Of a stretch of DNA of 32,160 nt, positions 4,978 to 15,149 are shown piece by piece. The translations under genes and the position numbers were made by a program. The notes below the pieces were generated by a model, which ran no database searches, was not told where the DNA came from, and worked only from the letters and a program-made list of their open reading frames with translations. How positions within the stretch are numbered: position 1 is the stretch's first letter; the number at the start of each line of letters is the position of its first letter. The DNA is taken from assembly GCA_020434415.1 (NCBI GenBank), contig JAGRAW010000010.1, positions 1-32,160 of the forward strand. The letters are read 5' to 3'. The stretch is from Bdellovibrionales bacterium (GTDB lineage Bacteria > Bdellovibrionota_C > UBA2361 > SZUA-149).

Positions 4978-5063
4978 GAGGAGGGTCCTGTCACCGGGAC
5001 GCGTGGTTCGTTGCGTTTCCGGCCTGAGGCGGGGACGTTCACGCAAAACTAGTCCGCGAAAAT

Positions 5064-5178
5064 GGACAGGGTTTCGCAAAAAGGACAGGGTTTCGCAAAG
5101 AAGAAAGGGTTTCAGAAAAGGATAGGGTAAAAAAGACAGGGTGAAAGAAAGACAGAGTTAGAGAAAGACAGGGTAAGG
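5064..5178 (+). repeat. Degenerate A-rich tandem repeat (GACAGGGT core)
   Basis: About seven imperfect units follow the pseudouridine synthase gene. GGACAGGGTTTCGCAAA occurs exactly at 5064-5080 and 5083-5099. Decayed versions follow: AGAAAGGGTTTCAGAAA (about 5102), AGGATAGGGT (about 5119), AAGACAGGGT (about 5133), AAGACAGAGT (about 5149) and AAGACAGGGT (about 5165). The spacing drops from 19 to about 15-16 bases. The strand is strongly purine-biased. The array ends in the palindrome GGGTAA-GG-TTACCC (5171-5184), directly before the stop codon of the convergent gene. Confidence 0.75.
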
Positions 5179-8182: not shown

Positions 8183-8902
8183 CTACTCTGATCCGAACAT
8201 CTGCGTGTAGTTCGCCTCTCTTTTGCGTTCCAAATGTTCAACGAGATCGTTAAGCTTGCGCCATCCTTTCTGCCCGATATCGCTTTGCAAGAGTCGGCTG
8301 CGGACTTCCTCGACCTTCTTTGCCTTGAACTCCTCGAAATGCGAACTGAGTTGTGCGAGGGGACGCCTTGCCGCTGTCGATGCGATCTCCTCCGGAGCAG
8401 ACCCCTCCTCGTCGGCCTCTTCCTCCAACAATTTCCGGAATAGATCCACGCGTTTCTGCGCCGCCAGTAGAGGCTCTTCATCAACGTCTCTTTCAAGGAT
8501 GGCGAGAGCACGTCGGCGCAGGGTCAAGGTATTCTGATGGTCAGGAGTTGCTTCTGCTTCCAACGCAAGCAGCCTCGACTGTTCGAGGGCGTGAGCGAGC
8601 GCGTTGCGAATGTGTTCCAGGGCCGCAATTTTCTCCTGCACAGCCTCAAGCAATCGAGCATAGCGGATCGGCACCTGGGCACCGAAAACAGCGCGATGCA
8701 CGAAGCCGACGAACCCCGGCTGTAAGTTGAAGATCTCTTCAACAACGCCATTAAGCTCGTCTTTCGCATCATCCAACCGCTGCTGCGCCTCTTTGATAGC
8801 ACGGAAGCAATCGCGGTCTTTCACCTGCAAGACCTGCAGCACCAATATCGATTCCGCGACAGGATCGCTCCGTTGGGGTGTCGTTGGTTCTTCTTCACTC
8901 AT
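8183..8902 (-). CDS. Hypothetical coiled-coil protein
   Basis: I do not recognise this 239-residue, mostly helical protein. It is acidic at both ends and has no signal peptide or membrane segment. Heptad-like helices cover about residues 25-65 (DRDCFRAIKEAQQRLDDAKDELNGVVEEIF), 85-120, 130-165 (LRRRALAILERDVDEEPLLAAQKRVDLFRKLLEEEADEE) and 180-235 (RRPLAQLSSHFEEFKAKKVEEVRSRLL, LNDLVEHLERKREANYTQMF). A short hydrophobic patch, NLQPGFVGFVHRAVFGAQVPIRYARL, interrupts them. The ATG has a strong GGGAGG five bases upstream, the best ribosome binding site in the window. A perfect 9-bp hairpin stands just before it (8917-8944). It is a single-gene unit facing the GNAT gene. Confidence 0.75.
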   Translation of the reverse strand: MSEEEPTTPQRSDPVAESILVLQVLQVKDRDCFRAIKEAQQRLDDAKDELNGVVEEIFNLQPGFVGFVHRAVFGAQVPIRYARLLEAVQEKIAALEHIRNALAHALEQSRLLALEAEATPDHQNTLTLRRRALAILERDVDEEPLLAAQKRVDLFRKLLEEEADEEGSAPEEIASTAARRPLAQLSSHFEEFKAKKVEEVRSRLLQSDIGQKGWRKLNDLVEHLERKREANYTQMFGSE

Positions 8903-8944: not shown

Positions 8945-9020
8945 GCGTTGCTTCCAGATCCATCCGCAACTACCCGAAAACCCCCGATTTTCAACCAGCA
9001 AAGCTCTCCGTCAGAAACAG

Positions 9021-9223
9021 GACAGAAACAGGACACCCAATGAAAAGCTCCCGGTAAGGCTGCAATACAGGACACCCAATCAAAGGCCTCGCTGCTGCCG
9101 CGCTCAGTCCAGGGCTCGGAAGGGAATCTTTGGGTGTCCCGTGTTGGCCTCCCGTGTTGGCCTACGCAGGCAATGCGGGACACCCAAGTAACGGCGTCCA
9201 GGGCTGCTGTGCTGTGTTCGGCA
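9021..9223. repeat. Repeat unit, copy 1
   Basis: Bases 9021-9150 recur at 9232-9361 with a single difference (G at 9119, A at 9330). The continuation 9185-9223 recurs, diverged, at 9367-9406. Copy 1 has about 30 extra bases, created partly by a 13-base tandem duplication CCCGTGTTGGCCT (9138-9150 and 9151-9163). At its left edge CAGAAACAGGACA is also repeated with an 11-base period (9012-9024, 9023-9035). Decamers GGACACCCAA are at 9031, 9070 and 9178, and the reverse complement is at 9130. Confidence 0.9.
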
Positions 9224-9231
9224 ATTGGAAT

Positions 9232-9406
9232 GACAGAAACAGGACACCCAATGAAAAGCTCCCGGTAAGGCTGCAATACAGGACACCCAATCAAAGGCCT
9301 CGCTGCTGCCGCGCTCAGTCCAGGGCTCGAAAGGGAATCTTTGGGTGTCCCGTGTTGGCCTCGCCGCAAGTAACGGCTTCCGGGGCTGCTGTGCTGTGTC
9401 CGGCGA
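9232..9406. repeat. Repeat unit, copy 2
   Basis: This is the second copy of the unit, offset by 211 bases from copy 1 over the first 130 bases and by 182 over the remainder. Decamers GGACACCCAA lie at 9242 and 9281, with the reverse complement at 9341. A further reverse-complement decamer lies just outside at 9419-9428. No transposase gene or target-site duplication accompanies it. Confidence 0.9.
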
Positions 9407-9627
9407 ATAGAAAATATATTGGGTGTCCTGAATTGCCTCTCCGCGGCTGCTGGGCGCCGAGGCGGGTTTGGTCGATGTGTAAGGGCTCGGAAACGAGGAG
9501 TTTTTGGAATGACTGGGCCGTGCGTCAGATCCTTCAGCAATCTGCGGTGGCGCCGATCTTTTAGTTTAGAGGGATCGCGGGGCAGACCGGCGATCTGTGG
9601 GCTTGGACCGGATATCGCAGCGTATAC

Positions 9628-10881
9628 ATGAGTAGTATTTATCGAGGGTTGCTAGCGGGGAGATCGGCCCTGCAGGCGTTCAGCACCGGACTTGGTGTGG
9701 TGGCCGACAATGTGGCGAACGCCTTTACGCCCGGCTTCAAGCCGAGCCGAGTCAGCTTCAGTGAGGTGCTCGCCGGCGAGGGGAGCCTCGGCGGCAGCGG
9801 CGTCAGCGCGACGACTCAGCGCATTGATGCACCAGCTTCGAGGGAAATGACCGGCCGCGGGCTTGATGCTGCGCTGGAGGGGAACGGAATGTTCGTGGTG
9901 GAGAACCCCGCTACCGGCGAGCGTTTCTATCAGAGGGCAGGGCAGTTCAACCTCGCTTCCGATGGCTCGATCCGCACCCGGTCCGGATACTCCGTCCTTG
10001 GCTATGCGCCCGGCGGGGGTGGGCTTCAACCGCTGCAGACCGCAGGAGCAGTCGGAGGTCCGACAGCTACGACGTCCGTGGACATCTCGGGAAATCTTGA
10101 TGTTCGCTCAGCGGTCGTGGCGGCGGCCGACTTACCTGTCGCGGGGACCAGCACGTTCGCTCAATATCGTAGTACTGCGGAAAGCAGCATCTCGTTCGAG
10201 ACGACGGATTCACTCGGTGGCACGCACTCAGCTACTGCGTATTTTTATCACACGGCGAATACTCCGACTCAGCAGTTCGAGTATCGCGTAGTGGTAGACG
10301 GAGCGGACGTAGGTGCAACGTCCGGCATGCCGGTAGAAGTTGCAGCCGGACAACTTCAGTTCACGCCTACGGGAGCGCGCGCGCTTCCCGTACCGGCTTC
10401 CGATGCAGTGCTCTCTCTTCCTTACGCGAATGGATCGCAAGCGAGAACGGTGGCGGTAAGTTTTGCAGGTTTTACGGCGTTGGCCACCGACTCGGCGACT
10501 TCTTCCATCATCGGCGATGGCCGTGGAAGTGCCCAGGTTACCGGCATCGAAGTCGGGGAGAACGGTATCCTCTACGGACGACTGTCGAACGGTGAGTCGA
10601 AAGTGCTTGGACAAGCGGCACTGGCACAATTTCCCAATGCCGAGCAACTCACCCGAATCGGTAACGGCTTATACGCAGTGAATGAAGCCTCCGGTGCGCC
10701 CGCATATGGTGTGGCAGGAGTGGGAGGCTTCGGAACGGTGACGCCGGCTGCGCTCGAGCTATCGGCAGTAGATATCGCCGGAGAGTTTCTTTCGGCGACC
10801 CTGTATCAGCGCGGCTTCGAGGCGAACATTCGGATGCTGGCAGGGATCGACGATCTATTGCGCGAGATTACGAAGCTCTAG
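9628..10881 (+). CDS. flgE: Flagellar hook-like protein (FlgE/FlgF/FlgG family)
   Basis: Family members polymerise into the flagellar hook or rod outside the cell. The N-terminal rod-like region contains LLAGRSALQAFSTGLGVVADNVANAFTPGFKPSRVSFSEVL (about 8-48), the recognisable NxANxxTxGFK motif. The C-terminal D0 helix reads ELSAVDIAGEFLSATLYQRGFEANIRMLAGIDDLLREITKL (about 376-417), the matching coiled-coil end. Between them are GRGLDAALEGNGMFVVENPATGERFYQRAGQFNLASDGSIRTRSGYSVLGY, typical of the D1 domain of hook and rod proteins, and a FlgE-like insert. The 417 residues suit FlgE better than FlgF or FlgG (250-260). There is no secretion signal, as expected for type III export. No other flagellar gene is in the window. 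The ATG lacks a good Shine-Dalgarno. The 3' end overlaps the convergent HDOD gene by 14 bases. Confidence 0.82.
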   Translation: MSSIYRGLLAGRSALQAFSTGLGVVADNVANAFTPGFKPSRVSFSEVLAGEGSLGGSGVSATTQRIDAPASREMTGRGLDAALEGNGMFVVENPATGERFYQRAGQFNLASDGSIRTRSGYSVLGYAPGGGGLQPLQTAGAVGGPTATTSVDISGNLDVRSAVVAAADLPVAGTSTFAQYRSTAESSISFETTDSLGGTHSATAYFYHTANTPTQQFEYRVVVDGADVGATSGMPVEVAAGQLQFTPTGARALPVPASDAVLSLPYANGSQARTVAVSFAGFTALATDSATSSIIGDGRGSAQVTGIEVGENGILYGRLSNGESKVLGQAALAQFPNAEQLTRIGNGLYAVNEASGAPAYGVAGVGGFGTVTPAALELSAVDIAGEFLSATLYQRGFEANIRMLAGIDDLLREITKL

Positions 10882-15070: not shown

Positions 15071-15103
15071 TGATCGGGAGAATTTGTTGTCATGGGAACA
15101 TTG

Positions 15104-15137
15104 CTTGGTAGCGAACAGTGCTTGGTAGCGAACAGTG
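15104..15137. repeat. 17-base tandem duplication between divergent regulators
   Basis: CTTGGTAGCGAACAGTG occurs twice with no spacer (15104-15120, 15121-15137), 34 bases after the kinase start codon and about 100 bases before the receiver start. It could be a doubled binding site for a regulator of either gene, or a simple slippage duplication. Confidence 0.8.
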
Positions 15138-15149
15138 CTGGCTCATTAT
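15122..15149 (+). promoter_or_regulatory. Possible sigma-70 promoter for the plus-strand receiver
   Basis: TTGGTA (15122-15127) and CATTAT (15144-15149) are separated by 16 bases and match four of six consensus positions each. The -35 element falls in the second copy of the 17-base tandem repeat. Recognition is by eye only. Confidence 0.25.

Follow-up and report, generated by a model that had tools for sequence, protein, structure and literature searches.

The eight-copy decamer array in the window (the whole 32,160-nt stretch of DNA that was analysed) is very probably composed of the terminal sequences of an element that encodes a transposase of TnpAY1 subclass 2.3, and the array itself is best explained as a derivative of such an element that lacks the gene and has been duplicated internally. 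The window forms contig 11 of a 4.54-Mb assembly, a metagenome-assembled genome that comprises 677 contigs and is 80% complete.

As stated in the original prediction, which was made from the sequence alone, the decamer GGACACCCAA occurs eight times, on the plus strand at 9031, 9070, 9178, 9242 and 9281 and on the minus strand at 9130, 9341 and 9419. The predicted duplication holds as a 127-bp block of 99% identity (9025–9151 versus 9236–9362), with the copies 211 bases apart, and the small edge duplications of 11-nt (9012–9030) and 13-nt (9137–9163) period are likewise real, the former containing a truncated motif (ggaca) after the first copy of the repeated word. The array stretch holds no convincing gene, again as claimed. 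When one mismatch is allowed, the window contains 10 matches to the decamer, a number that no shuffle reached; the mean in shuffles was 1.53. Neither the 127-bp block nor the 211-bp unit has another occurrence in the genome, so that the unit is not dispersed. The array lies between an ORF at 8183–8902 on the minus strand, which has no Pfam match, and a FlgE/F/G-like flagellar gene at 9628–10881. No transposase gene sits next to it, and its inward-facing outer motifs have the same arrangement as those found around transposase genes.

Table 1 Features of the decamer array (positions are those of the window).
Feature	Positions	Strand	Sequence or remark
Whole array	9031..9428	.	gene-less derivative; outermost motifs + at 9031 and - at 9419, inward-facing
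Motif copy 1	9031..9041	+	GGACACCCAAT
Motif copy 2	9070..9080	+	GGACACCCAAT
Motif copy 3	9129..9139	-	GGACACCCAAA
Motif copy 4	9178..9188	+	GGACACCCAAG
Motif copy 5	9242..9252	+	GGACACCCAAT
Motif copy 6	9281..9291	+	GGACACCCAAT
Motif copy 7	9340..9350	-	GGACACCCAAA
Motif copy 8	9418..9428	-	GGACACCCAAT
Flank stutter outside motif copy 1	9012..9030	+	cagaaaca-ggac-agaaaca, 11-nt period
Flank stutter outside motif copy 3	9137..9163	-	cccgtgttggcct twice, 13-nt period
Duplicated unit, copy A	9025..9165	+	motifs 1-3
Duplicated unit, copy B	9236..9362	+	motifs 5-7; 99% identity with copy A over its first 127 bp

Genome-wide, GGACACCCAA is present 66 times in about 35 places, compared with two occurrences of the reversed control, which bears out the expectation that the decamer would be enriched elsewhere. 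The array consensus in this genome is GGACACCCAAT; a few single decamers inside genes (e.g. at L031) are probably there by chance. The outermost motifs face inward in seven places and outward in one, as taken from a site list in which some pairs are doubtful. Eight of the 35 places lie within 320 bp of a contig end, a number above chance (p = 0.015), and at seven of these eight the motif points toward the break, as is expected if multicopy genes were lost in assembly gaps. A DNA-uptake sequence is ruled out, as the 66 copies are too few, are clustered and correspond to transposon ends.

The partner of the motif was sought among 84,980 GTDB species by a scan for stretches in which GGACACCCAAT occurs twice in direct orientation. 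There were 33 of these, and they come from Gammaproteobacteria, Planctomycetota, Acidobacteria, archaea and others. Clustering of their ORFs gave a single recurrent family, a protein of 320–410 aa that is encoded in 15 of the 33 stretches, in most cases no more than a few hundred bases from the motif, and that contains RCVRR, NHxH, GRFWEGRF and YVDLNP blocks. In alignment A1, with a 326-aa reference, these appear as N70 H71 x H73, FWEGRF and Y183 VDLNP. The HUH motif in the form NHYH, the WE and YVDLNP motifs, a length of ~325 aa and an HUH-to-Y spacing of ~110 are those of TnpAY1 subclass 2.3 (spacing 110; Quentin et al. 2018, PMC6006769), and the source of the motif therefore fits a long Y1/HUH transposase of this subclass. 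An AlphaFold model of the protein (pLDDT 85.7) has one significant fold match in the PDB, the REP-associated tyrosine transposase 4ER8 (E 4.6e-5, probability 1.00), while a PDB sequence search found no relative. Pfam gave no match to the subclass 2.3 proteins examined, so that the partner of the motif would have escaped a search by family alone, and NCBIfam returned only a sub-threshold match to REP_Tyr_transpos. The four Pfam Y1_Tnp matches in the genome itself (L009–L012) were rejected as candidates because they belong to other subclasses and have no motif nearby. Two of these other Y1 transposase genes, L010 and L011, encode proteins of 344 and 347 aa that are 55% identical, and L010 is bracketed by palindromic GGAACCGGGTTCCT inverted repeats.

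The motif marks the ends of the element that carries this gene. In a count of 8-mers in the flanks of 39 gene copies, GACACCCA, GGACACCC and GACATCCA rank highest both upstream and, once reverse-complemented, downstream. When 21 distinct copies were retrieved with the gene as the only query, GGACANCC was present in inward orientation within 350–400 bp on at least one side of 17 of them, where about one would be estimated by chance; searches that start from the gene and from the motif thus converge on one source, the subclass 2.3 transposase. The layout is constant, with forward motif copies upstream of the gene and the first reverse copy ~150–245 bp after the stop codon. In an uncultured Saccharospirillaceae genome (G083), homology among gene copies starts on the left at GGACACCCA and ends on the right at TGAGTGTCC, which identifies the motif as the element terminus. 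Column frequencies at the ends read GGACA(C/T/G)CCA, with A/T favoured 4–5 bases outside, and inward-facing GGACA(C/T)CCA brackets the genes in Gammaproteobacteria, Planctomycetota, Acidobacteria and the genome of the window. An intact element consists of inward GGACA(C/T)CCA copies, ~60–320 bp, the transposase gene, ~150–250 bp and inverted copies. The exact decamer is not universal, since the gene-rich Pseudoalteromonas rubra has the diverged ends aGACACCCA and GGACACTCA.

The element occupies a locus in two Pseudoalteromonas shioyasakiensis megaplasmids and is missing from that locus in strain CF6-2; the junctions of this single presence/absence pair are too diverged, and no empty site resolved to the base pair was found for any copy. 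The synteny route failed because the neighbouring gene has only ~40% protein identity in relatives. A phage search gave no match, and plasmid matches came to 16 records. Beside one Pseudoalteromonas element (L137, 3923–3962), a 35–40-bp stretch matches 31 Vibrio plasmid records, partly near integron-cassette-like genes, and is possibly an integron attC-like repeat. Five genomes (G073, G083, G062, G074 and G084) have 7–17 matches each to the subclass 2.3 gene, of which many are fragmentary or interrupted by stop codons; the multicopy hosts are Pseudoalteromonas rubra, a Saccharospirillaceae bacterium, Planctomycetota BJ22 and two unclassified bacteria, and these multicopy, partly broken genes reflect active spread and decay.

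The gene is also present in the genome of the window. A profile search detects it at C677:31853–32311 (E 2e-33), where it is cut by the contig end; the fragment retains YIDLNP and the C-terminal domain, and motifs follow ~200–250 bp after its stop codon. Contig C384 begins within a 3' end of the gene that is 95% identical, with a motif ~170 bp onward, and contig C276 opens with a related 3' region. No intact transposase was found in this assembly, the copies being broken at contig ends. In a comparison of 46 genomes from the class, those six that bear the gene contain 6, 7, 9, 10, 18 and 66 decamers, whereas the 40 others have a median of 2 (Mann–Whitney p = 1e-4, Fisher p 9e-6, with only six gene-bearing genomes). 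One outlier, G044, has 23 decamers and no detected subclass 2.3 gene; its assembly is 1.7 Mb and 70% complete, and the gene may lie in a gap or have been lost.

A second feature of the motif is a repeat in its flank, which we term stutter and score where a word of 7 or more bases that abuts the motif on its outside is found again, without mismatch, 7–30 nt further out. In the genome of the window, such repeats lie on the outer side of 25 of 66 decamers, against a mean of 0.33 and a maximum of 3 in 1000 dinucleotide shuffles, and on the inner side of 1 of 65. This test involved no selection for arrays; the loci from the direct-pair scan were selected and serve as illustration only. When all loci are pooled, 118 of 345 distinct motif sites have stutter, and at 77 the outer copy lacks the full motif. 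In 67 of these 77 partial copies the junction falls 0–3 bases into the motif, and their matched lengths are mostly 8–13 nt with shifts of mostly 9–15 nt. The duplicated words vary from locus to locus, so the pattern is not the spread of one sequence.

It could be argued that stutter and array growth are independent of the transposase and arise at purine-rich repeats through unequal recombination or through slippage during normal replication. An existing repeat can indeed grow by slippage and unequal exchange, and some long arrays (L043, L054 and L055) look like plain microsatellites. The restriction of stutter to the outer side and its end at the motif start are at odds with this explanation, as are the frequency of such repeats at control GGA sites of the same loci, which is only ~1%, and the recurrence of stutter with unrelated flanks in different phyla, and we consider slippage as the origin unlikely. 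We tentatively read these strongly polar repeats as scars of nicking at the terminus, and an origin linked to the enzyme has, in our judgement, a little under an even chance of being correct.

The decamers also meet the centromere of this genome, at a different locus. The original prediction offered a centromere-like or condensin site as one reading of the window array, which is not supported at this locus: the parS sites (TGTTTCACGTGAAACA) are all on contig C145 and none is in the window. Nine perfect parS sites and one with a mismatch fall within C145:3648–4925 (L148, G000:C145), in the order parB-parA-[array]-rsmG-mnmG, and seven copies of the motif are interspersed among them. A unit of 82 nt, present three times, contains the motif and a parS site at a fixed 35-base offset, and one of 104 nt, present twice, contains a motif, a parS site and an inverted motif. 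These co-duplicated units indicate that part of the centromere cluster was duplicated together with the ends of the element. Were the motif instead a host protein-binding site (an operator, uptake or segregation signal) that the transposon uses as a target, the arrays would be functional binding clusters, which would suit both its presence throughout the parS cluster that separates parA from rsmG and the dense, bidirectional character of the arrays. That is very unlikely, however, because the motif is where transposon copies begin to be homologous, which places it in the element, and because the class-wide motif count tracks the transposase gene, with most gene-free genomes at chance numbers. 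The parS cluster also holds a second element of ~125 bp in three copies (L148 4020–4145, 4459–4582 and 4764–4886), which has 28-nt inverted ends GTCGAGGGGGTCAGGTGSCGG.

A strain-specific or assembly artefact, which the fragmented metagenomic source of the contig might suggest, is exceedingly improbable, since the two duplicated copies differ by one substitution and a ~30-bp indel, which makes a simple assembly duplication unlikely, and since the same layout recurs in dozens of independently assembled genomes, isolates among them, and enrichment of the decamer extends across the genome.

Returning to the transposase as the source of the arrays, we hypothesize that the linear nonamer, read on one strand, is the recognition site of the enzyme, which would nick at the first bases of this motif or just within them. 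When the cut end is repaired or joined again, the adjacent 9–15 nt of outside DNA, about one helical turn, could be re-copied, leaving a polar stutter of the form X, GG(A), X, GGACACCCA. Longer re-copied segments, or repeated rounds, would generate whole extra ends and arrays like that of the window, and plain slippage may enlarge arrays afterwards. The window array would be a gene-less derivative of ~400 bp that is, or once was, mobilised in trans and was then tandem-duplicated in place. It is possible, and we propose it tentatively, that a clade of HUH transposases with linear, non-palindromic ends re-copies about one helical turn outside its cut. Such end-stuttering would be an activity not described before, through which arrays are built and nearby sequence can be carried along, apparently including the host's own parS centromere.

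The closest known systems share parts of this anatomy. In the survey that describes TnpAY1 subclass 2.3 (PMC6006769), the genes likewise occur in several copies per genome in marine Gammaproteobacteria, but the subclass was reported without REP-like sequences and mostly from Proteobacteria; here a linear nonamer is found at both ends, and Planctomycetota and Acidobacteria also have members. The part of Di Nocera et al. (2013, PMC3733652) considered here describes TIRtrons, in which a RAYT-like gene (TIRYT) lies between non-REP inverted repeats, some of them dispersed and clustered. Our element has the same structure, a RAYT-like gene flanked by terminal inverted repeats rather than REPs, and the TIRtron consensus GGGGWSAS given there can be read over the GGGGACAC start of some of its ends. 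Most TIRYT genes were later placed in subclass 2.1, and their TIRs are longer and varied; neither the GGACAYCCA motif nor flank stutter is mentioned in that part of the paper.

The prediction of a REP/BIME-like non-autonomous element served by a RAYT-type transposase elsewhere was correct as to role, as the genome contains a motif-tied Y1/HUH transposase related to TnpA-REP. Like REPs, BIMEs and REPINs, the decamers are short non-coding repeats that are dispersed at high copy number in both orientations, often clustered, and linked to a RAYT-type gene whose Y1 transposase has the 4ER8-type fold. They are not REPs in the strict sense, since GGACAYCCA is non-palindromic and no GTAG/GTGG foot is seen, and the often multiple gene copies per genome and defined ends make the element more like an insertion sequence. 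With IS200/IS605 it has in common Y1/HUH chemistry, defined ends and multiple copies, and it differs in its large insertion domain, C-terminal domain and terminal inverted nonamers. No subterminal hairpin is conserved between the stop codon and the right end in two alignments.

Literature searches with the motif string returned almost only primers and unrelated sequences, and a search of open-access literature, which excludes most subscription papers, gave no description of the flank stutter or of a role for GGACAYCCA as subclass 2.3 terminus. The gene family and gene-plus-inverted-repeat structures such as TIRtrons are known; the terminal motif of subclass 2.3 and the flank stutter appear to be new. 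The motif supplies the missing DNA partner of this HUH subclass, so that cleavage and transposition become directly testable with short oligonucleotides, and the polar stutter is a sequence mark of where the enzyme probably acts. If stutter is enzyme-driven, it would provide a bacterial route to growing intergenic repeat arrays, including the duplication of centromere sites.

Two other repeats are present in the window. At 5059–5176, tandem, degenerating units of 16–19 nt are built around GGACAGGGT (AAAAAGGACAGGGTTTCGC); this array resembles a variant or decayed form of a decamer-type array, and its 13-mer AAAAGGACAGGGT occurs nowhere else in the genome. At 15096–15139, an ORF begins with 2.6 copies of a 17-nt unit, GAACAGTGCTTGGTAGC.
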